A stretch of DNA of 64,000 nucleotides from Fibrobacter sp. (lineage in GTDB: Bacteria > Fibrobacterota > Fibrobacteria > Fibrobacterales > Fibrobacteraceae). The position numbers were made by a program, and so were the translations under genes. Below, piece by piece: positions 20,308 through 31,557 of this stretch (positions are counted from its first letter, which is position 1; every line of letters starts with the position of its first letter). The stretch covers positions 1 through 64,000 of the forward strand of contig JAKSIC010000008.1 in assembly GCA_024399015.1 (NCBI GenBank). The letters run 5' to 3'. The notes beneath the pieces were generated by a model. That model was not told the origin of the DNA, did not search any database, and saw only the letters and a list, made by a program, of their open reading frames with translations.

Positions 20308-20748
20308 TGTATTACCCTTTGGATAAAAAATTTACGAGGTGAAATGTAGAAAAAGAGAACTGTATTTGATGGCTTCCTTATAAAAAACTGCCTGTTTTGA
20401 CTTCATTTTTCTCGTTTGTGTCGATCAATGGATTCCAAGTACTACTTATCACGAAAAATTATGAGTTTGTTCGCTATAAATTATGGTTTTTGGCGCAAAA
20501 AAGGCAATTGTTGAAAATTTTTGTAAAAAATGTCATGCTCGTTGTCGTTTCATCGGCGAAAAATGGTGCTTCATCGGCAAAATTTGACTTTTTTTGAAAA
20601 AAACGTTAAAAAATTGGTTCGTTTCTAAAAAATACTTGTATATTGGTATCGTCAATTTATGCTATCGGGTCCCGTATGGGATGTTTTGTGCTGTGCGCAT
20701 GCATATATGGAACTTGGATGGATAACGTTTTTATTGGAGACAAATAAT
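20308..20748. other. 441-base divergent promoter region between aspS and the V-ATPase operon
   Basis: There is no gene. The left side holds the aspS leader and -10. The middle is AT-rich. Two direct repeats (TTCATCGGC at 20549-20557 and 20570-20578) lie 21 bases apart, and a TATATT (20639-20644) lies further right as the likely -10 of the atp operon, leaving a leader of about 100 bases. A short in-frame extension of the first atp gene back to 20659 has no ribosome site and looks spurious. Confidence 0.5.
20549..20582. repeat. Direct repeats TTCATCGGC-AAAA, 21-bp period
   Basis: TTCATCGGCGAAAA (20549-20562) and TTCATCGGCAAAA (20570-20582) are two turns of helix apart and about 60-90 bases upstream of the presumed V-ATPase -10 box. 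This is a plausible site for a dimeric regulator. Confidence 0.45.
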
Positions 20749-21351
20749 ATGGCAGAAGATCTGCAATACCTTATGGAACGCATCCAGAAGGATGCCGTCG
20801 ATAAAGCTGAAAACGAAGCTGCAGCAATCATTGCAAAGGCTAAGGAAAAGGCTGCTGAAATCGTGAAGGCAGCTGAAGAAGAAGCCCAGGCAAAGCTTGC
20901 CAAGGCCGATAAGGACGCAGAAGCATTTACAGAACGTAGCGAACGTACCCTCGAACAGTCTGCTCGCGATCTTCTCCTCTCTGTAGGCAAGAACCTCGAA
21001 AAGATGATTCTTGACCTCCTCTCCCTCCAGGTTGAAAAGTCTCTGGACGAATCTACTGTCAAGGAAATGCTCCTTGCTGTTGCCAAGAGTTACACTTCCG
21101 ATGTGGAAGTTGACCTCTCCGAAGCCGATGCCAAGAAGCTCGCTTCCTTCGTCACTGGCGAATTTGCTAAGCAGGTTGCCGGCGGCGTCAAGGTCGAAAG
21201 CGATAAGGGTGTCAAGTTTGGCTTCCGCGTCAAGCTCGAAGGTGGCAAGGTCAGCCACGAATTTACTTCCGCAGCAATGGCTGATGCTCTTTCCGCATTG
21301 CTCCGTCCGCAGCTTGCAAAGGTTGTCAACGCTGCAGCACAGGCTAAGTAA
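20749..21351 (+). CDS. ntpE: V-type ATPase subunit E (peripheral stalk)
   Basis: The 200-residue product starts at MAEDLQYLMERIQ (ATG 20749 with TGGAGA at 20735-20740). Its first half is a long Ala/Glu/Lys-rich helix (about residues 10-75) and its second half a compact alpha/beta domain, as in subunit E of V/A-type ATPases, where it forms the stator stalk with a partner. No separate gene for the partner subunit (G/H) is seen; the N-terminal helix may pair with part of subunit I. It is the first gene of an eight-gene operon. Confidence 0.82.
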   Translation: MAEDLQYLMERIQKDAVDKAENEAAAIIAKAKEKAAEIVKAAEEEAQAKLAKADKDAEAFTERSERTLEQSARDLLLSVGKNLEKMILDLLSLQVEKSLDESTVKEMLLAVAKSYTSDVEVDLSEADAKKLASFVTGEFAKQVAGGVKVESDKGVKFGFRVKLEGGKVSHEFTSAAMADALSALLRPQLAKVVNAAAQAK

Positions 21352-21364
21352 TTAAAGGCTATCA

Positions 21365-21901
21365 ATGAGCGCTCCATCTTACTTAATGTCGTCGCTTCCC
21401 ATGCTGGAACTGGGTGACGTGCCCCCGCTGACTATGGAAGAATTCCGTAGCCGTTGCGAAGGCGTTCTCGACCAGCCTGAGTTGGAAGCTCTCGACGCGC
21501 TTTTGAATGGCGAAGAATCTGACGATGAATTCGTTTCTGCCTACCAGGCTCACGAAATCCAGATGAAGAACGTTTCCGGTAGGCTCCGCGCACAGGCATG
21601 GGGTCCCGAAGTTCGTTTCAGCGAACGTTCTTTCCCTGGCTACGACGTCACTTTCGCCAAGATGATTTCAGATGCGTTCGCCAAGGCAAGTCCTATTGAA
21701 AAAGAGCAGGACATCGACAAGGCTCGCTTCTGGCTCGTAGATACTCTCGCCGGTGTAGGGGAGGGTACTGTGAAGCACGTCTACGCTTATGCTATCAAGC
21801 TCCAGATTTGTGCACGTTGGGCCCGCCTTTCTGAAAAGGCCGGCGACGAAGCCGTTATCAAAGTTATTAATGCAAACGATCCTGCCTATGTGCAGGAATG
21901 A
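21365..21901 (+). CDS. DUF2764 protein of the V-ATPase operon
   Basis: The 178-residue protein begins YLMSSLPMLELGDVPPLTMEEF, which is the recognisable start of DUF2764 proteins found in V-ATPase operons of Chlamydiae and Bacteroidetes-type bacteria. It is mostly helical. It occupies the operon position where other V/A-ATPases carry subunit C, for which no gene is present, so it may be the socket that joins rotor and stalk; that is inference. It lies 13 bases after ntpE. The next gene starts 17 bases after its stop and has CCGGAGG at 21902-21908. Confidence 0.75.
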   Translation: MSAPSYLMSSLPMLELGDVPPLTMEEFRSRCEGVLDQPELEALDALLNGEESDDEFVSAYQAHEIQMKNVSGRLRAQAWGPEVRFSERSFPGYDVTFAKMISDAFAKASPIEKEQDIDKARFWLVDTLAGVGEGTVKHVYAYAIKLQICARWARLSEKAGDEAVIKVINANDPAYVQE

Positions 21902-21918
21902 CCGGAGGTCCATTTTCA

Positions 21919-23676
21919 ATGGCTAGTATCGGAAAAATCATCGGCGTCAACGGTAACTTGATTCGCGTCAAGTTCGAAAGCGCCGTGTCTCAAAACGAAG
22001 TGGCATACGCCAAGCTGCCTTCCAAGACAGCTGACGGCAAATCCGAAATTATTCCGCTGAAGAGCGAAGTCATCCGTATCCGCGGTGACTACGCTGAACT
22101 TCAGGTGTTCGAAGACACCACCGGCCTCAAGGCTGGCGACGAAGTTGAATTCACCGGCGAACTTCTTTCCGTTGAATTGGGCCCGGGCCTTTTGACCCAG
22201 GTGTTTGATGGTCTTCAGAATCCGCTGCCTGAACTTGCAGAACAGTGCGGCTTCTTCCTGCAGCGCGGTAAGTACCTGCCGGCACTGCCCCGCGACAAGA
22301 AGTGGGCTTTCACTCCGGTGGCTAAGCCGGGCGACGTTCTTGTTGCTGGTGACACCATCGGTACCGTACCGGAAGGCGTTTTCACTCACCGCATCATGGT
22401 GCCTTTCAAGGTTCTCGGTAAGGTTACCGTCGAATCTGTCGTTGCCGCTGGCGAACACGTTGTCGAAGACGTTGTCGCAGTCGTAAAGAACGACAAGGGC
22501 GAAAAGATTGAAATCAAGATGGTTCAGACCTGGCCGGTGAAGATGCCTATCAAGGCTTTCGAAGAACGTCTCCGCCCCACCAAGCCGCTGACCATGCAGC
22601 AGCGCATTGTGGATACCTTCTTCCCTGTGATGCAGGGCGGTACCTTCTGTACTCCGGGCCCCTTCGGTGCCGGTAAGACTGTGCTGCAGCAGCTCATGAG
22701 CCGTTACGCCGACGTGGACATCGTGATCCTCGCTGCTTGCGGTGAACGTGCTGGTGAAGTGGTGGAAACCCTTCGCGAATTCCCTGAGTTGATTGACCCC
22801 CGTACCGGTAACTCCCTCATGGAACGTACTTTGATTATTTGTAACACTTCTTCCATGCCGGTGGCTGCTCGTGAAGCTTCCGTTTATACTGGCGTGACCC
22901 TGGCTGAATACTACCGCCAGATGGGCCTGAACGTGTTGCTGTTGGCTGACTCTACTTCCCGTTGGGCTCAGGCTCTCCGTGAAATGTCTGGCCGCTTGGA
23001 AGAAATTCCGGGTGAAGAAGCCTTCCCGGCTTACCTCGAATCTGTGATCGCAGCCTTCTACGAACGCGGTGGCGTTGTTCGCCTGAAGGACGGTTCCACT
23101 GGTTCCGTGACCATCGGCGGTTCCGTTTCTCCGGCAGGTGGTAACTTCGAAGAACCGGTGACCCAGGCTACCCTTAAGGTGGTGGGCGCATTCCTCGGCC
23201 TTTCTCGTGAACGTTCCGACCAGCGCCGCTTCCCGGCAATCCACCCGCTGGATTCCTGGTCCAAGTACGAAGGCATCATCGATTCCAAGAAGGTTGCCGA
23301 AGCCCGCAAGATTCTTGCTGCTGGCGTTGACGTCAACAACATGATGAAGGTGGTGGGTGAAGAAGGTACTTCTATCGAAGACTTTATCACTTACCTCAAG
23401 TCTGAATACCTTGATGCGGTTTACCTGCAGCAGGACGCTTACCACGAAATCGACGCCGCCTGCACTGGCGACCGTCAGAAGTACGTATTCGACAAGGTCT
23501 ATAACATTTTGAAGACTCCTATGTCCTTCGCTGAAAAGGACGTTGCCCGTACCTTCTTCTTGAAGCTGACTCAGGCTACCAAGGACTGGAACCGCGTGGC
23601 AATGGATTCCGCTGAATTCAAGGATATCGAATCCAATATTACTGCTTCCGTGAAGGAGGTAACTGTCAATGCATAA
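21919..23676 (+). CDS. ntpA: V-type ATPase catalytic subunit A
   Basis: The 585-residue catalytic subunit hydrolyses ATP in the V1 head. The P-loop GPFGAGKTV (about residue 250), the A-subunit-specific non-homologous region (about 110-200) and the segment [31 protein letters not shown] (split here from a longer conserved block near 345) are present. ATG 21919 is chosen over 21898 because the Shine-Dalgarno sequence CCGGAGG lies between them. It overlaps the start of subunit B by 8 bases, indicating translational coupling and the usual 3:3 stoichiometry. Confidence 0.96.
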
Positions 23677-24970
23677 TGTTGCTTACCATCGTATTGAACG
23701 TATCGCCGGTTCTGTGATCTCTCTGAAGGCAGAAGGCGTTGCCAACCAGGAACTTGCCCAGGTTACCAGCTCTTTCGGTACTTCTCTCGCTCGCGTGATC
23801 CGTATCGACGGCGACATGGTTGACCTTCAGGTCTTCGCTGGTGCCCGTGGTATTTCTACCGATTCCGAAGTCCGCTTCCTGGGCGAACCTATGAAGGTTC
23901 CTTATTCCGAAGCACTCCTCGGCCGCGTATTCAACGGTGCTGGTCAGCCCCGCGACAACGGCCCCGAAGTTGACGGCGAACGCATTACCATTGGTGGTCC
24001 TTCTGTTAACCCGGCAAAGCGCGTGATCCCCAAGACCATGGTGCGTACCGGTATTCCCATGATCGACGTGTTCAACACTCTCGTGGTGTCCCAGAAGCTC
24101 CCGATTTTCTCTATCGCTGGTGAACCGTATAACGAACTTCTGGCCCGCATTGCTCTGCAGGCTGAAGTGGACGTCATCGTTCTTGGCGGTATGGGCCTTA
24201 AGCACGATGACTACCTGTACCTGAAGGACTTCTTGGAAAAGAACGGTGCACTTAGCCGTACCGTGATGTTCATGCACACTGCATCTGACCCCATCGTGGA
24301 ATGCTTGCTTGTTCCGGATGCTTCTCTTGCCGTTGCAGAAAAGTTTGCTACCGAAGGCAAGAACGTTCTCGTTCTCCTTACCGATATGACCAACTTCGCC
24401 GACGCCATGAAGGAAATCGCCATTACCATGGAACAGATTCCTTCTAACCGTGGCTATCCTGGCGACCTCTACTCTTCTCTCGCTAGCCGTTACGAAAAGG
24501 CTGTGGACTTCACCGACGCAGGTTCCATTACCATCCTCGCCGTGACCACCATGCCTGGCGACGACGTGACCCACCCGGTTCCGGATAACACCGGTTACAT
24601 TACCGAAGGTCAGTTCTATCTCCGTAAGGGCCGTATCGAACCGTTCGGTTCTCTGTCTCGTTTGAAGCAGCAGGTGAACGGCAAGACCCGTAGCGACCAC
24701 CGTACCATCATGAATACCATGATCCAGCTCTACGCTTCCTACAAGGAAACCCTTGAAAAGCAGTCCATGGGCTTTAACATGAGTAACTGGGACCAGAAGC
24801 TCTTGAAGTACGGTGCACGTTTCGAAAAGGAAATGATGGACCTGTCCGTGAACATTCCTCTGGAACAGGCTCTGGATCTGGGCTGGGCAATCCTTGCTGA
24901 TTGCTTCGAACCCGAAGAAACCGGTATTCCTTCCAAGATGATTAGTCAGTATTGGCCCAAGAAGGGGTAA
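23669..24970 (+). CDS. ntpB: V-type ATPase subunit B
   Basis: The 433-residue non-catalytic nucleotide-binding subunit alternates with A in the hexamer. It lacks a Walker A P-loop, as expected; at the equivalent place it reads [15 protein letters not shown] (about residue 150). The segments [18 protein letters not shown] (about 263) and the [18 protein letters not shown] block are typical. The family is usually about 440-460 residues, so this is slightly short. ATG 23669 overlaps the end of ntpA. Subunit D follows 3 bases after its stop. Confidence 0.95.
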
Positions 24971-24973
24971 TTA

Positions 24974-25615
24974 ATGGCTAAAGTCAAGTTAACCAAAAAC
25001 GCCCTCAAGGCGGAACGTGACGCGTTGAAGCGCTTCCAGCGCTATCTGCCCACGTTGTTGCTTAAAAAGCAGCAGCTGCAGATGGAAATGCGTACGCTCC
25101 AGGAGAGGGTGATGGCAAAGCGCGAGGAGGAAGACAAGCTCCGTAAGAGCATGGCTTCCTGGATTTCGCTGTATGCCGAGCCTATCGATTGGTCCAAGTA
25201 CCTGTCGGTGAAGGAAGTGCGCCAGGGCGAAGGTAACATCGCCGGTGTCCGCATTCCTACATACGATGGGGTGGACTTCAATATTTCCATTCCGGATTTC
25301 TTTACCACGCCGGTTTGGCTGGATGACGGTATCCGTTCTCTGCAGGGCCTTATTTCGCTCCGCCTGGAACGCCGCGTTCTCGAAAAGCAGTACGAATTGC
25401 TTTCTATGGAACTGCGTACCACAAGCCAGCGCGTGAACCTGTTCGAAAAGGTGAAGATTCCCGAAGCTAAGGATAATATCCGTAGAATCAACATTTTCTT
25501 GGGTGACCAGCAGACATCCGGTGTGGCCCGCAGTAAGCTTGCCAAGGGCAAGTCTACAGCCCGCGCCGCTGCTCAGGATGCCGCCGCCGCTAACGCTAAG
25601 GAGGCTGCCGCATGA
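24974..25615 (+). CDS. ntpD: V-type ATPase subunit D (central rotor)
   Basis: The 213-residue protein begins KVKLTKNALKAERDALKRFQRYLPTLLLKKQQLQMEM, the long N-terminal rotor helix of subunit D, and ends with a second long helix (about 130-180) that pairs with it. The last 25 residues are Ala-rich and probably disordered. It is the central shaft that transmits rotation between V1 and the membrane ring. No subunit F gene is found next to it. Its stop overlaps the ATG of subunit I (ATGA), so the two are coupled. Confidence 0.9.
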   Translation: MAKVKLTKNALKAERDALKRFQRYLPTLLLKKQQLQMEMRTLQERVMAKREEEDKLRKSMASWISLYAEPIDWSKYLSVKEVRQGEGNIAGVRIPTYDGVDFNISIPDFFTTPVWLDDGIRSLQGLISLRLERRVLEKQYELLSMELRTTSQRVNLFEKVKIPEAKDNIRRINIFLGDQQTSGVARSKLAKGKSTARAAAQDAAAANAKEAAA

Positions 25616-27546
25616 TTACTCCAATGAAGAAAGTTACCATCCTTACGGTGGCTGACGCCGTCGATGAGTCCCTGGCCGCACTCCGCGCCATGGAAATCAT
25701 CCATGTGACTCCGCTCCAGGCCGCCGCAGGATCCAAGGTGAACGCCGCCAAGGGCGAACTGAACCGTGTTCAGAAGGCTCTTGAAAACGTTCCGGACAAG
25801 GCTCCCAAGGGCGTTACCGCCATGGCTTCCGACGCTTCCGTTTCTGGCGTGTCTCTGGTGGACGAAATCCAGCAGTTGATGGCCGATTCCAAGCAGGCTG
25901 AAGCCGACAAGGAACATGCCGAAGAAGAACTTTCCAAGCTTGGTAAGTTTGGAAATCTTGACCCGGCTACTGTTTCTGCCCTGGCACAGAAGGGTGTCTT
26001 CGTCAAGCTCTATGTGGCTGACGTAAGAGTGGACTCTTTTGACGTGGATGGCGCAGGCTCTATCAAGGAATTCGGTTCCGACGACAACGGTACCTATTAC
26101 GCCGTATTCAGCATGGGCGAAGCTCCTGTGGCTGTGACTGGCCACTATAGCGAAATCGCTATGCCGGCCAAGTCTCTGGCAGAATACCGCGAAATGGAAG
26201 CAAATGCCAAGGCAACGCTTGCTCGCGTAGAAAAGCGCCTCGGTGAGCTTTCCGGCGTCAAGAACCAGATCGAAAGCCGCCTTTCCGAAGTTACCGACGA
26301 TTATAAAATGGCTGAAACTGCTGCCGGCATGGTCGGCGACAGTAACGTCGCTGCACTTCAGGGCTTCTGCCCGGCTCCCCGCATTGCCGAACTTCAGGCT
26401 GCCGCCAAGAAGAACGGTTGGGGCCTCCTGGTAGACGATCCCACCGAAGAAGATAATGTTCCCACGCTCCTGGGCTATAACAAGCTTACCAAGCCCATGC
26501 AGTGCCTCTACGACATTATCGGTATTTCTCCGGGCTACAACGAAGTGGACGTCAGCTCTGTGTTCCTTTGCTTCTTCAGCATATTCTTTGCAATGATTGT
26601 GGGCGATACCGCTTATGGTATCTTGTTCCTCGCCATCGCATTGTTTGCCCGCAAGAAGATGCCCAAGGCAAATTCCGCCGCATTCCATTTCATCTATCTG
26701 ATGAGTGGCGCAACCATTCTGTGGGGCGTCATCAATGCAAGCTTCCTGGGATTCTCTCCGGAAATTGCAGGTTGGAGCGCCTACCTGGATATTGCCTATT
26801 ACGATTTCCTCCCGGAACCGATCCGCAATGCGCTTTACTGGATCCGCAGTAACGCTCCCACGGACCCGGCTCGCTTCGAGGTTTACAAGCAGTTCTGCGA
26901 AGGCTTTACTTTCCTCCCGCAGACCTTTATCCCGAAGGCCGCCGGTGCTTCCCAGATGCAGCACATCCAGTTGTTCTGCTTCTGCATTGCAGTGGTTCAC
27001 TTGAGCATTGCTCACGCCTGGAACGTGGTGGTCCGCTTTAAGCGCAAGTCCTCCACCTTCATGGCTCAGGTGGGCTGGCTCATGGGCGCATGGGTTATGT
27101 TCTTCCTCGCTTGCAACATGGTGCTCGGCATCGAAATGCCTGGCTTCGTAATTCCCATGTTCATCGTGGAAGTGGTGCTTCTGCTCCTGTTCTCTGTGCC
27201 GCCTAGCCGCCTCAAGCAGGACTTCATTAGCATTCCCATGCTGGTGCTGGATATCGTGAACAGCTTCACCGATGTGATCAGCTATATCCGTCTGTTTGCA
27301 GTGGGTATGTCTGGTGCCGCCATCGCCGAAGCTTTCAATGGCATGCTCTCTCCGCTGTTTGGCTCCGCCATCGGCATTGCAGGCGCTGCTTTGATCCTTC
27401 TGTTCGTACATGGCCTGAATATCGCCCTCGCTGTCATGGGTGTGGCCGTTCACGCAGTACGTCTTAACACACTTGAATTTTCAAATGGCTTGAACCTTGA
27501 ATGGAGTGGCTTCGCCTTTACTCCGTTCGCCAAGCAAAAAAATTAA
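25612..27546 (+). CDS. ntpI: V-type ATPase subunit I (membrane stator, a-subunit type)
   Basis: The 644-residue protein has a cytoplasmic N-terminal half with coiled-coil arms (about 1-300) and a membrane half with about seven or eight helices (310-630). The conserved helix near the end, ISYIRLFAVGMSGAAIAEAFNG (positions about 557-578, split), supplies the Arg560-type residue needed for ion transfer past the K ring. The start ITPMKKVTILTVADAVDESLAALRAM is family-typical. It overlaps ntpD by 4 bases. Two K genes follow 39 bases later. Confidence 0.93.
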   Translation: MITPMKKVTILTVADAVDESLAALRAMEIIHVTPLQAAAGSKVNAAKGELNRVQKALENVPDKAPKGVTAMASDASVSGVSLVDEIQQLMADSKQAEADKEHAEEELSKLGKFGNLDPATVSALAQKGVFVKLYVADVRVDSFDVDGAGSIKEFGSDDNGTYYAVFSMGEAPVAVTGHYSEIAMPAKSLAEYREMEANAKATLARVEKRLGELSGVKNQIESRLSEVTDDYKMAETAAGMVGDSNVAALQGFCPAPRIAELQAAAKKNGWGLLVDDPTEEDNVPTLLGYNKLTKPMQCLYDIIGISPGYNEVDVSSVFLCFFSIFFAMIVGDTAYGILFLAIALFARKKMPKANSAAFHFIYLMSGATILWGVINASFLGFSPEIAGWSAYLDIAYYDFLPEPIRNALYWIRSNAPTDPARFEVYKQFCEGFTFLPQTFIPKAAGASQMQHIQLFCFCIAVVHLSIAHAWNVVVRFKRKSSTFMAQVGWLMGAWVMFFLACNMVLGIEMPGFVIPMFIVEVVLLLLFSVPPSRLKQDFISIPMLVLDIVNSFTDVISYIRLFAVGMSGAAIAEAFNGMLSPLFGSAIGIAGAALILLFVHGLNIALAVMGVAVHAVRLNTLEFSNGLNLEWSGFAFTPFAKQKN

Positions 27547-27585
27547 ACCAAGGGATAATTCCCGCTAATTAATGAGGATAAAAAA

Positions 27586-28041
27586 ATGGAACCGAATACA
27601 ATGGTGACTCTCGCTAAGATGGGCGCAGCTGCTGCTCTCGGCATTGCAGCAATGGGCTCTGCCCTTGGTTGCGGTACTGCAGGTATGTCTGCAATTACCG
27701 TATGGAAGAAGGCTTACGCACAGGGCAAGGGTGCTCTCTTCACTCTGCTCGTGTTCGTCGGTGCTCCGATTTCCCAGACCATTTACGGCATGCTTCTCAT
27801 GAACTTCATCTTGAGCAGCGCTGCTGCTGAAGGCTTTACCAACTGGGGCGGCTGCCTCGGTGCAGGTATCTTCGGTGGTCTCGGCATGATGTGCTCCGCT
27901 TGGTACCAGGGTAAGGCTGGTGCAGTGGCTTGCGACTCCCTCGGTGAAACCGGCAAGGGCATGGTGAACGACCTCATGGTTCTCGGTATCGTCGAAACCG
28001 TGGCTCTGTTCGTGCTCGTGTTCTCCATGATGGTGCTTTAA
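27586..28041 (+). CDS. ntpK: V-type ATPase proteolipid K, copy 1 (sodium-ligand set complete)
   Basis: The 151-residue proteolipid has four membrane helices (two fused hairpins) and forms the rotor ring. Compared with Enterococcus hirae NtpK, whose Na+ ligands are Thr64, Gln65, Gln110 and Glu139, this protein has Ser63-Gln64 in APISQTIYG, Gln108 in WYQGKAGA and Glu137 in IVETVALF. So each side-chain ligand position is filled, with Ser replacing Thr. That favours sodium coupling, although such residues also occur in some proton pumps. AATGAGGA before ATG 27586 contains the ribosome site. It is followed 18 bases later by a closely similar second K gene. Confidence 0.92.
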   Translation: MEPNTMVTLAKMGAAAALGIAAMGSALGCGTAGMSAITVWKKAYAQGKGALFTLLVFVGAPISQTIYGMLLMNFILSSAAAEGFTNWGGCLGAGIFGGLGMMCSAWYQGKAGAVACDSLGETGKGMVNDLMVLGIVETVALFVLVFSMMVL

Positions 28042-28059
28042 TCCTAAAGGAGCAACTTT

Positions 28060-28515
28060 ATGGATAATGAACAGCTTTTAACCTTGGCAAAGCTCGGTGC
28101 AGTGGCCGCTCTCGGTCTCGCTGCTATGGGTTCTGCCATGGGTTGCGGTACAGCCGGCATGGCTGCTATCGGAGCCTGGAAGAAGGCTTACCTGAAGGGT
28201 AAGAATGCGCTCTTTACGCTTCTTATCTTCGTGGGTGCGCCTATCGCTCAGACGATTTACGGCATGCTTCTCATGATGTACATTCTGAACAAGTCTGCCG
28301 CTGCTCCCGAAAACTGGGCCGCTTATCTCGGCGTAGGTATTTTCGGCGGTATCGGTATGCTTGCTTCTGCATGGTACGTGGGCAAGAGTGCTGCCGATGC
28401 CTGCAACGCCCTCGGTGAAACCGGTAAGGGCCTTGTGAACTACCTGATGGTGCTGGGCGTGGGTGAAACCGTTGCCTTGTTCGTCATGGTGTTCTCCATG
28501 ATGCTGGTGTCGTAA
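28060..28515 (+). CDS. ntpK: V-type ATPase proteolipid K, copy 2 (altered ion site)
   Basis: The 151-residue paralogue is very similar to copy 1 through all four helices and keeps the essential carboxylate (Glu136 in GETVALF) and Gln64. At the other two ligand positions it differs: Ala63 in APIAQTIYG where copy 1 has Ser, and Val107 in WYVGKSAAD where copy 1 has Gln108. Either this subunit carries protons, or it binds sodium more weakly and a mixed ring results. AAAGGAG lies 8 bases before ATG 28060. It is the last gene of the operon, followed by a hairpin (28523-28543) and a strong terminator. Confidence 0.92.
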   Translation: MDNEQLLTLAKLGAVAALGLAAMGSAMGCGTAGMAAIGAWKKAYLKGKNALFTLLIFVGAPIAQTIYGMLLMMYILNKSAAAPENWAAYLGVGIFGGIGMLASAWYVGKSAADACNALGETGKGLVNYLMVLGVGETVALFVMVFSMMLVS

Positions 28516-28569
28516 GTAGTTCCTGCGGTTTATAAAGCCGCAGAAATTGCCGCAAAACATCGCAATTAT

Positions 28570-28608
28570 GAACCTCGTTGGGGAATGGCCCCCGCGAGGT
28601 TCTTTTCT
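28570..28608 (+). terminator. Terminator of the V-ATPase operon
   Basis: GAACCTCGTTGGGG pairs with CCCCCGCGAGGTTC (GAATGG loop), and TTTTCTTT follows. A smaller perfect hairpin, CTGCGG/CCGCAG, lies just before at 28523-28543. Confidence 0.85.
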
Positions 28609-28612
28609 TTAT

Positions 28613-28640
28613 GTCATCCCGGGCTTGACCCGGGATCTCC
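28613..28640. repeat. 28-bp palindromic repeat, copy 2
   Basis: Same layout as 89-116: GTC, an 8-bp stem (ATCCCGGG against CCCGGGAT) around CTTGA, then CTCC. Two stem pairs differ from copy 1 by compensating changes. Like copy 1 it lies directly after a transcription unit. Confidence 0.7.
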
Positions 28641-28668
28641 CTTCTTTTCATTTTCTATCTTTGGGCCT

Positions 28669-30408
28669 GTGATAAGCCTCCAACAGCGCCTAGCCAAGTT
28701 TTTCGTTATTAACGGATACCTGCCCAAGATTTTCTTGGCGGCGGTTATTGGCTGCGTTACAGGTCTTGTGGCGGTGGCTTTCCATTTTGGCTTGGAAAGC
28801 ACCAGCGCGTGGATTCGTGGTCCCTGGACGGGGGAGAATGCGCTTCCTTGGTGGACATTCTCCATTATGCCGGCCATTGGCGGCTTGATTGTTGGCTTTA
28901 TCATCTATAGGCTGGCTGACGCTCCCGAAACAGCGGGGCAGGGCACCGACAACATGATCAAGGCCTTCCATCACGAAGGCGGAAAGATCCGTAAGCGCGT
29001 GGCTCCCGTCAAGTTCATCACCAGCATTATTACACTTTCTACAGGCGGAAGCGCCGGCTACGAAGGTCCTGTTTCCCAGATTGGTTCTGGTGTGGCTTCC
29101 ACTATCTGCAAGTTCTTTAAGGTCCCGCGATCGCTGCGGGGGCAGTTCACCCTGGCGGGCACTGCCGCGGGCCTGGGCGCTATCTTTAAGGCTCCTCTTT
29201 CGGGGGCATTGACCTCCGTCGAAGTCCTGTATCGCGAGGACTTTGAATCAAACGCCTTTGCCACTTCCATTATTTCCTCCGTCGTGGCCTTTACGGTCTA
29301 CATTGCATTTGTGGGAACGGCACCTGCCATTGCCGATGTGCCGGTTTTCCCCTTCACCAACGGTGCGGAACTTTTGGCTTGCGCCCTCCTGGGTATTCTT
29401 TGTTTTCCGTTCTCCTACCTGTACGTCCGCTGCTATAACGAATCCGAAACCAGGTTTGCCAAGTGGAACAAACCCAACTGGATCAAGCCTGCGGTAGGTG
29501 GTGCTTGCGTTTCTGCCATAATCTGGGCTTACCCCGAAGTGGCTGGCGGTGGCTTTGAGTTCATCACCGAAATCATGCACGACATGATGCCCCATACGGT
29601 CCTCGGAGTGTTCATTTTGCTGGCCATTGTGCTTGCCAAGATTATCGCTACGGCTCTTACGGTGGGTTCAGGCGGATCTGGCGGCGTGTTCGGCCCCTCA
29701 CTTTTCATTGGTGGCGTTCTGGGGGCAGCCTTCGCCGGCGTTATCGAACTGATTGCCCCGGGCGTTCTCCGCAATCCAGAAATGTTTATTCTCGTGGGTA
29801 TGGGTGCGTTCTTTGCAGGTGCGGCCAAGGCTCCCATTGCAGGCGTGGTCATGGTCTGCGAAATGACCGGAAGCTACAGCCTTTTGCCTGGCCTTTTGAT
29901 TGCAGCCGTGATGCACATCGCCTTCTCCCGCCCCTGGAGCATTTACAAGAGCCAGGTCCAGAACAAGTTTGCAAGCCCTGCACACCGCGGCGATATCGAC
30001 CAGGATATTCTCCGAATCACTACCGTGGGCGAAGTCATCGAACATTGCGAAATGAAGGTCCTCAAGGCAGAGGATTCCCTGGCCGATGTGCTGAAGGATA
30101 TTGAAGTCAACTACGTCTATCCGGTGTTTGATCAGGGTCGCTACATCGGGCTTCTGGACATGTCCGTGGTGAAGACCGCCTACATTTCCACTCCGGACTT
30201 GATCCAGCATTTGCTGATTTCTGACTGCACCGTCAAAGCGCCCATGCTTACGGACACCACAGACCTCCACACAGCGCTCCGCATCTTCGTGAACAACAAG
30301 ATTCAGGAACTTTGCGTCAAGGATTCCAGCGGCGAAGTCATTGGCACCCTGAGCCACGACGCCATTCTCAAGGCTTACGATAGAATTGTCAATCAAGCCA
30401 GGGAATAA
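28669..30408 (+). CDS. CLC-type chloride channel or H+/Cl- antiporter with CBS pair
   Basis: The 579-residue membrane protein has the CLC core (about residues 20-420): GSAGYEGPVSQIG, in which the Glu matches the gating glutamate of the GREGP motif, GTAAGLGAIFKAPLSGALTS, and GSGGSGGVFGPSLFIGG. A C-terminal pair of CBS domains (about 445-575) probably binds adenine nucleotides. Whether it is channel or antiporter is not decided; the proton-glutamate position is not obvious. I start at GTG 28669, which follows a TATCTT box by 7 bases without any Shine-Dalgarno sequence, so the mRNA may be leaderless. The longer frame from 28585 runs through the terminator and repeat and is not credible. Confidence 0.87.
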   Translation: MISLQQRLAKFFVINGYLPKIFLAAVIGCVTGLVAVAFHFGLESTSAWIRGPWTGENALPWWTFSIMPAIGGLIVGFIIYRLADAPETAGQGTDNMIKAFHHEGGKIRKRVAPVKFITSIITLSTGGSAGYEGPVSQIGSGVASTICKFFKVPRSLRGQFTLAGTAAGLGAIFKAPLSGALTSVEVLYREDFESNAFATSIISSVVAFTVYIAFVGTAPAIADVPVFPFTNGAELLACALLGILCFPFSYLYVRCYNESETRFAKWNKPNWIKPAVGGACVSAIIWAYPEVAGGGFEFITEIMHDMMPHTVLGVFILLAIVLAKIIATALTVGSGGSGGVFGPSLFIGGVLGAAFAGVIELIAPGVLRNPEMFILVGMGAFFAGAAKAPIAGVVMVCEMTGSYSLLPGLLIAAVMHIAFSRPWSIYKSQVQNKFASPAHRGDIDQDILRITTVGEVIEHCEMKVLKAEDSLADVLKDIEVNYVYPVFDQGRYIGLLDMSVVKTAYISTPDLIQHLLISDCTVKAPMLTDTTDLHTALRIFVNNKIQELCVKDSSGEVIGTLSHDAILKAYDRIVNQARE

Positions 30409-30487: not shown

Positions 30488-31288
30488 TTACAGTGCCTTG
30501 ATTTCCTCGGGGGAGAGGCCTGTTTGTTGGGCAATGACTTCTAAAGAAATTCCTGCATCGCGGAAGCCCTTAGCCAGAATCTTTCTTTCTTCAGCGCGTG
30601 TTCTCTTTTCGCGGATGTTGAGTTCCTGTTCCAGAGTCATATAAGCCTTCTTTGCTGCGGGATCCTTGCGGTACTTTTCAACCAGTTCGTGAATGCGCTC
30701 CATCTTCTTGGATTCGCATTTCTTGGTAGCGAAATACTGCATGTATTCGCGGGTCGCCTCGTCCTTGATGTTAGCGTACTTGTTAAATATATAGAAATTT
30801 TTGTAACAAAGGTCATTCAACAGTATTTCGTGGTCGCTTTCGTCACGGTTCTGGAACCTGTAAATGGACTTTCCCTTATGGAAGATGTCGTCCGGGCAGA
30901 TGAACAGGATGTACTGTTCCTGGAGTTCCTCGTAGTCACCACCCTTTGCCAAAGCATCCAAGTCGCACATGCCCTGGTAATAACGAGCCCGCTTCGGAAG
31001 TTCTCCCGTGTTTTCCACTTGCATCTCGATATCGAACTGCCTTCCCGCATTTGCCTTGCCGTCGGCACTAGGAATTTCCTCCCGCGCAAGCACGTCAAAA
31101 CGAACGCTCTTGTGGAATGGATCTTCCTGCGTTGTCGCTTCGGTGACAACTGTGATTTTCTCGATGGAAATCTTAAGGACATCCTGCAGGAAGTCCTTGG
31201 CCACATCCACGTTGCTGAATACTTTCACGAACATAAAGTTGTCTGTGATATCTAGCTCTTCGTACGGTTTGATTTTGTATTCGCTCAC
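30488..31288 (-). CDS. Rpn-family PD-(D/E)XK nuclease (recombination-promoting, transposase-like)
   Basis: The 266-residue protein begins SEYKIKPYEELDITDNFMFVKVF, the characteristic opening of Rpn/PDDEXK transposase-like proteins. The nuclease core shows FDVLAREE and then RQFDIEMQV (Asp and ExQ, about residues 82-110), followed by ARYYQGMCDLDALAKGGDYEEL. Members promote RecA-independent recombination or act as endonucleases and are often mobile or present in many copies. The C-terminus has a helical region (EKRTRAEERKILAKGF) typical of the group. GTG 31288 follows GGAGGG by a few bases and removes an implausible N-terminal extension. It is flanked by a distant pair of direct repeats (30413 and 32283). 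Confidence 0.82.
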   Translation of the reverse strand: MSEYKIKPYEELDITDNFMFVKVFSNVDVAKDFLQDVLKISIEKITVVTEATTQEDPFHKSVRFDVLAREEIPSADGKANAGRQFDIEMQVENTGELPKRARYYQGMCDLDALAKGGDYEELQEQYILFICPDDIFHKGKSIYRFQNRDESDHEILLNDLCYKNFYIFNKYANIKDEATREYMQYFATKKCESKKMERIHELVEKYRKDPAAKKAYMTLEQELNIREKRTRAEERKILAKGFRDAGISLEVIAQQTGLSPEEIKAL

Positions 31289-31557
31289 TTTCCCTCCATG
31301 TTTCGAGCGCTTGTTGCGCTCACTATTAACACGCAGGAAATTTCCCGACGAACCCGCCTTGAACGGAAAAATTTTCTTTACGCAAGTCCCACTTTTGGAA
31401 TAGTGTTCCGACAGCGACAGGGGCACTTTCCCACTTTATTTTGTCAGAACTGTGACACTTCTGTGATAAATGGCGGTTGCCTACCGTTTGCAAAAACTTA
31501 GCGCATAACCTTTAACAAATAATACTAAAAAAATGTGTATATTTATTCCATCAGCTA
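31289..31557. other. 269-base AT-rich region between the Rpn gene and a lipoprotein gene
   Basis: These are divergent genes. The right part holds a TATATT (31538-31543) 14 bases before the lipoprotein ATG. The left part contains the Rpn ribosome site. No further gene is visible. Confidence 0.5.

Follow-up and report, generated by a model that had tools for sequence, protein, structure and literature searches.

The V/A-type ATPase operon of a Fibrobacter genome encodes two tandem proteolipids, here called K1 and K2. K1 carries the full set of side chains that bind Na+ in the rotor of Enterococcus hirae and K2 lacks two of them, a division of residues that is conserved among relatives. This conserved split suggests a rotor that would serve two different ions. 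In the best explanation, to which we give about an even chance, K1 and K2 would co-assemble in one ring, with K1 sites taking Na+ and K2 sites biased to H+; co-assembly, expression of both K genes and the ion preference of K2 are what we infer here from sequence. Among the options raised in a first-pass annotation of this DNA, a mixed ring with altered ion specificity appears to be the best reading. A changed gear ratio, also raised there, is less supported, since K2 keeps the essential carboxylate; with Glu retained in both K proteins, each subunit may still offer as many ion sites as before, although the number of Na+ moved per ATP could change.

The operon occupies positions 20659-28515 of the window (the whole 64,000-nucleotide stretch of DNA that was analyzed). 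Its genes run E, DUF2764, A, B, D, I, K1, K2, and it belongs to a genome of 3.34 Mb in 43 contigs that is 99.85% complete. Its features are as follows.

20659-21351, plus strand: V-type ATPase subunit E (NCBIfam PRK01558, E 1.4e-37, under the curated cut-off)
21365-21901, plus strand: DUF2764 protein, the operon's unknown gene (Pfam PF10962, 31.3 bits, cut-off 24.1)
21898-23676, plus strand: V-type ATPase subunit A (NCBIfam PRK04192, 784.5 bits)
23669-24970, plus strand: V-type ATPase subunit B (NCBIfam PRK02118, 761.8 bits)
24974-25615, plus strand: V-type ATPase subunit D, the central rotor (NCBIfam PRK02195, 253.5 bits)
25612-27546, plus strand: V-type ATPase subunit I, the stator (NCBIfam PRK05771, E 2.2e-108, under the curated cut-off)
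27586-28041, plus strand: K1 proteolipid (NCBIfam PRK06649, 206.7 bits, cut-off 127)
28042-28059, plus strand: K1-K2 spacer of 18 bp with a strong ribosome-binding site, AAAGGAG (read from the sequence)
28060-28515, plus strand: K2 proteolipid (NCBIfam PRK06649, 209.4 bits, cut-off 127)
28570-28610, plus strand: GC-rich hairpin followed by TTTTCTTT, 3′ of K2 (fold of 28540-28620, -27.1 kcal/mol)

The true start of subunit E is probably near 20746 (MAEDLQYL), as the 5′ extension of the ORF is not covered by the PRK01558 match. The hairpin and TTTTCTTT downstream of K2 probably mark the end of the operon and its transcript; the hairpin was not among the matches of a stricter consensus scan. Among the operon genes scanned, none was recognized as coding for subunit C, F or G, and it is within this gene set that the DUF2764 protein (21365-21901) sits. 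K1 and K2, both within the window, are the only c/K genes in the genome. An F-type a subunit was not found in the genome, making the V/A-type ATPase the only rotary ATPase detected there.

Both K proteins are 151 amino acids long, are 69% identical to each other and exceed the curated cut-off for bacterial V/A-type subunit K. Each is predicted to fold as a double hairpin of four helices, the last of which bears the single essential Glu, and shares its operon with A, B, D, and I. The AlphaFold models (mean pLDDT 93.5 for K1 and 94.6 for K2) superpose on E. hirae NtpK (2bl2_A) with Z scores of 18.9 and 19.0, respectively, and an rmsd of 2.0 Å over 146 residues. The register on 2bl2 was taken from a family profile search, which supplied the NtpK match in the PDB (a single-sequence PDB search did not return NtpK), and pairs Ser63 with Thr64, Gln64 with Gln65, Tyr67 with Tyr68, Gln108 with Gln110, Val136 with Val138, and Glu137 with Glu139. 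In E. hirae, the ligands are the Leu61 carbonyl, Thr64, Gln65, Gln110, and Glu139, and Tyr68 belongs to the second shell (PMC2359735, PMC10382590). The site is formed within one subunit by the four-helix bundle (PMC2359735), and each Fibrobacter K should therefore carry its own complete or incomplete site. K1 (Ser63, Gln64, Tyr67, Gln108, Val136, Glu137) has the whole NtpK-type ligand set, that is, Thr/Ser64, Gln65, Gln110, and Glu139 in E. hirae numbering. K2 (Ala63, Gln64, Tyr67, Val107, Gly135, Glu136) does not; two of its four Na+ ligands have given way to Ala63 and Val107, while Gln64 and the carboxylate of Glu136 are retained. In single-hairpin c subunits, the loss of even one ligand is regarded as likely to hamper Na+ binding, and missing ligands are taken to mean that Na+ is no longer used (PMC2359735). 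At the position of Gln65, every predicted Na+ enzyme has a polar residue, whereas predicted H+ enzymes have an aliphatic one (PMC2359735). Since Gln64 is invariant throughout K2, as are Tyr67 and Glu136, K2 would be classed by this position as intermediate and not as a typical H+ site.

Relatives were gathered by a scan of genome contigs together with a phylum-wide genome search. In the resulting alignment, Ser/Gln/Gln was found in 29 of 29 distinct K1 and Ala/Gln/Val in 33 of 33 distinct K2, counts that taken alone are partly circular because K2 was defined for counting by Ala63/Val108. Gene order (79 locus records), alignment columns 45, 117, 126, and 136, and the tree independently agree with the division; K2 follows K1 by 18-176 bp in the 79 records, not all of which are independent. 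Ser/Gln/Gln also occurs in each of the 15 single-K Fibrobacteraceae, and Thr or Ser/Gln/Gln in 35 of 35 outgroup K proteins (Spirochaetota, Omnitrophota, Chlamydiota, Lentisphaerota, and others). A second outgroup set of 64 K, partly overlapping the first and including two-K genomes, held no exception to Ser/Thr, Gln, Gln. In Spirochaetota (393 genomes), nearly all genomes with a match have a single K, and the few two-K members examined retained Thr/Ser, Gln, Gln. Split pairs in other phyla were absent from the best loci of these 393 genomes and of the genomes behind 26 loci. The coordinates and residue assignments of the first-pass annotation were borne out. Translations and profile alignment agree that Ser63 and Gln108 of K1 match Thr64 and Gln110 of NtpK and that K2 has Ala63 and Val107, the essential Glu (137 and 136) and Gln64 are present in both, and alignment with NtpK supports one subunit with a complete Na+ set beside a neighbor without two ligands. 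Among homologues, the Ser/Gln versus Ala/Val division is conserved and does not vary at random.

Two partial exceptions were encountered, both of them K1/K2 hybrid genes (L071:597-1052; L073:281-688 and L146:7995-8402) that join K1-type Ser63/Gln108 to a K2-type Gly before Glu and a K2 C-terminus. One comes from a foreign bin, on a contig of 3 kb, and the other is fragmentary, missing the K N-terminus and any adjoining I gene. Both may be artefacts or pseudogenes, arising as deletion products or by assembly collapse; a natural recombinant is possible.

Fixed differences between K1 and K2 occupy 6 of 151 columns (45, 63, 108, 117, 126, and 136). They include two of the four columns for ligand side chains (hypergeometric P for at least two, 0.0077). 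A third fixed difference, overlooked in the earlier annotation, lies beside the carboxylate, where Val136 of K1 corresponds to Gly135 of K2. The changes at 45, 117, and 126 fall outside the ligand set; Asp117 of K1, which is outside the ion site and shared by 34 of 35 outgroup proteins, is replaced by Asn throughout K2. These three changes, the replacement of a near-invariant Asp in particular, could reflect a structural role for K2 in setting ring size, asymmetry, assembly, or contact with the rotor, to which the ligand changes would be secondary. The K1 and K2 models also match c-type subunits of eukaryotic mixed rings, where c′ and c″ have a structural role of this kind. However, the ion site and its immediate flank account for half of the fixed changes, more than expected by chance, and we consider a primarily structural role unlikely.

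K2 forms one clade in the tree (support 100/99) and K1 groups with the single-K relatives. With the six diagnostic columns masked, the tree gave one change each for K1 and K2, with weak support (52 and 64). Because the single-K Fibrobacteraceae and the outgroups have Ser/Thr, Gln, Gln, K2 represents the derived state. The dN/dS ratio is ~0.10 within K1 and likewise within K2, which indicates that K2 is not a decaying copy and is under purifying selection as K1 is.

The mixed ring could have arisen and could work as follows. A single duplication within Fibrobacteraceae would have given the second K copy, whose pocket would have been rebuilt by exchange of the Ser/Thr and Gln ligands for Ala and Val and of the residue before the carboxylate for Gly, with Glu, Tyr, and one Gln staying in place; strong constraint would then have acted on both copies. 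The K1 and K2 proteins would occupy the same ring and turn against one shared subunit I. At gut Na+ levels, K1 sites would load Na+, K2 sites, having fewer polar ligands, would take H+ (or Na+ much more weakly), and the K1:K2 composition would determine the ratio in which the two ions are moved. The composition of the site and the concentrations of the ions are both stressed as determinants of selectivity (PMC3692424). A more far-reaching version, possible but doubtful in our view, is a genetically encoded dual-ion rotor: in one V-type ring, K1 sites would carry Na+ and K2 sites H+, their ratio being either fixed or tunable, with ATP turnover obligatorily linked to both gradients.

Both gradients could be made by this organism, as its genome encodes the Na+ decarboxylase beta subunit OadB, a Na+ pump, and has six matches to complex I antiporter-type subunits in two clusters. 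Neither Rnf/NQR nor a membrane pyrophosphatase was found in the genome. A gain of K2 that tracks complex I was considered and rejected: PF00361 was present in 74 of 74 Fibrobacteraceae searched, with a K pair or a single K, and complex I subunits thus do not explain which species have K2. No compensating change in the stator for K2 was found. When 32 subunit I sequences from lineages with the pair were compared with 15 from single-K lineages, no fixed changes emerged, and Arg560 and Arg617 of the stator are invariant in 47 of 47 aligned I sequences; K2 would therefore work against the stator without a fixed change in it.

The retained polar residues of K2 leave room for another reading, in which K2 would bind Na+ with lower affinity through Glu136, Gln64, a backbone carbonyl, and water, and the mixed ring would tune Na+ affinity or rotation kinetics while remaining a Na+ pump. 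The invariance of Gln64, Tyr67, and Glu136 in K2 is consistent with this, as is the description of the E. hirae ring as almost non-selective, with the Na+/H+ concentration ratio of importance (PMC3692424). Against it, two of the four ligand side chains are aliphatic in every K2, and we judge this reading improbable, to the same degree as the structural role.

K1 and K2 could instead form alternative homomeric rings, a Na+ enzyme from K1 and an H+ enzyme from K2, chosen according to conditions by differential translation or stability, and the two genes do have separate ribosome-binding sites of unlike sequence. However, they share one operon with a single I subunit and lie only 18 bp apart, and a sequence scan found no promoter-like site between them. 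The use of the two genes under different conditions, another early suggestion, is for these reasons less supported than co-assembly, and we allow alternative rings only a small chance. Tandem duplication in highly expressed operons is common, and further broken K copies occur in some strains, but a mere dosage duplication, in which the many K needed per ring would tolerate a drifted second copy with lost ligands, is very improbable because the new residues are fixed, not variable, across K2 and the dN/dS of K2 is no higher than that of K1.

Mixed rotor rings are already known. Eukaryotic V-ATPases combine c, c′, and c″, which resemble the Fibrobacter pair as paralogous proteolipids that each have an essential Glu in one V-type ring; to our knowledge all are H+ subunits, with no division into Na+-complete and Na+-incomplete members. 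The ring of Acetobacterium woodii is a bacterial Na+ rotor that combines different kinds of c subunit, including a V-like one with four helices. The K1 and K2 models match chain 4bem_J of this Na+ F-type ATP synthase (PDB 4bem) with Z ~16. The A. woodii enzyme is F-type and mixes two-helix with four-helix subunits, whereas that of Fibrobacter is V-type and has two four-helix subunits of equal length that differ in ligands and both keep Glu. The NtpK ring of the E. hirae Na+ V-ATPase (PDB 2bl2) has a four-helix K of the same fold (Z ~19) and the same ligand positions, and K1 has all of its ligand side chains; it consists of ten identical K, while Fibrobacter adds a K2 without equivalents of Thr64 and Gln110. 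Enzymes coupled to both Na+ and H+ are likewise already on record (PMC3692424). The A-type ATP synthase of Methanosarcina acetivorans is reported to couple to both ions, which is ascribed to binding-site selectivity, and the passages cited here make no mention of a second kind of rotor subunit (PMC3692424). Within the phylum of Fibrobacter, the V-ATPase operon of Chitinispirillum alkaliphilum has a predicted Na+ motif in K, and its subunits are listed as KIDBACE, with a single K as opposed to the pair (PMC4814513). A literature search of partial coverage returned neither a V-type ring whose paired K proteins show a systematic difference in Na+ ligands nor a publication on the Fibrobacter K pair.

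A single c/K sequence is usually taken to tell whether a rotary ATPase runs on Na+ or H+. A ring of Na+-complete and Na+-incomplete subunits would, if true, break this one-sequence rule and offer a natural test of whether one rotor carries two ions at once, for which the single-K relatives in Fibrobacteraceae are natural controls. It would also bear on the energy metabolism of Fibrobacter, a major rumen fiber degrader, through the only rotary ATPase detected in the genome.

Second, partial K copies are present in some Fibrobacter genomes (L148:6840-7900, L152:7500-8600, L142:13200-13764, L149:15130-15763). In L148 and L152, the 3′ end of I precedes the extra K1 and K2. A short hairpin-rich repeat (GAGCCAGAAAGCGACTCAGCGTAAGCGAGTCG...), absent from the window, breaks K1 near codon 11 in L148 and L152 and precedes the K2 copy in L142. 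Downstream of the operon, a gene for a ClC-type chloride channel/exchanger with a CBS domain (28585-30408) starts 69 bp after K2; a ClC-type neighbor recurs in a distant branch (L138, L140, L141), perhaps for charge compensation. A transposase of the PD-(D/E)XK nuclease family lies beside the operon on the minus strand (30488-31426).
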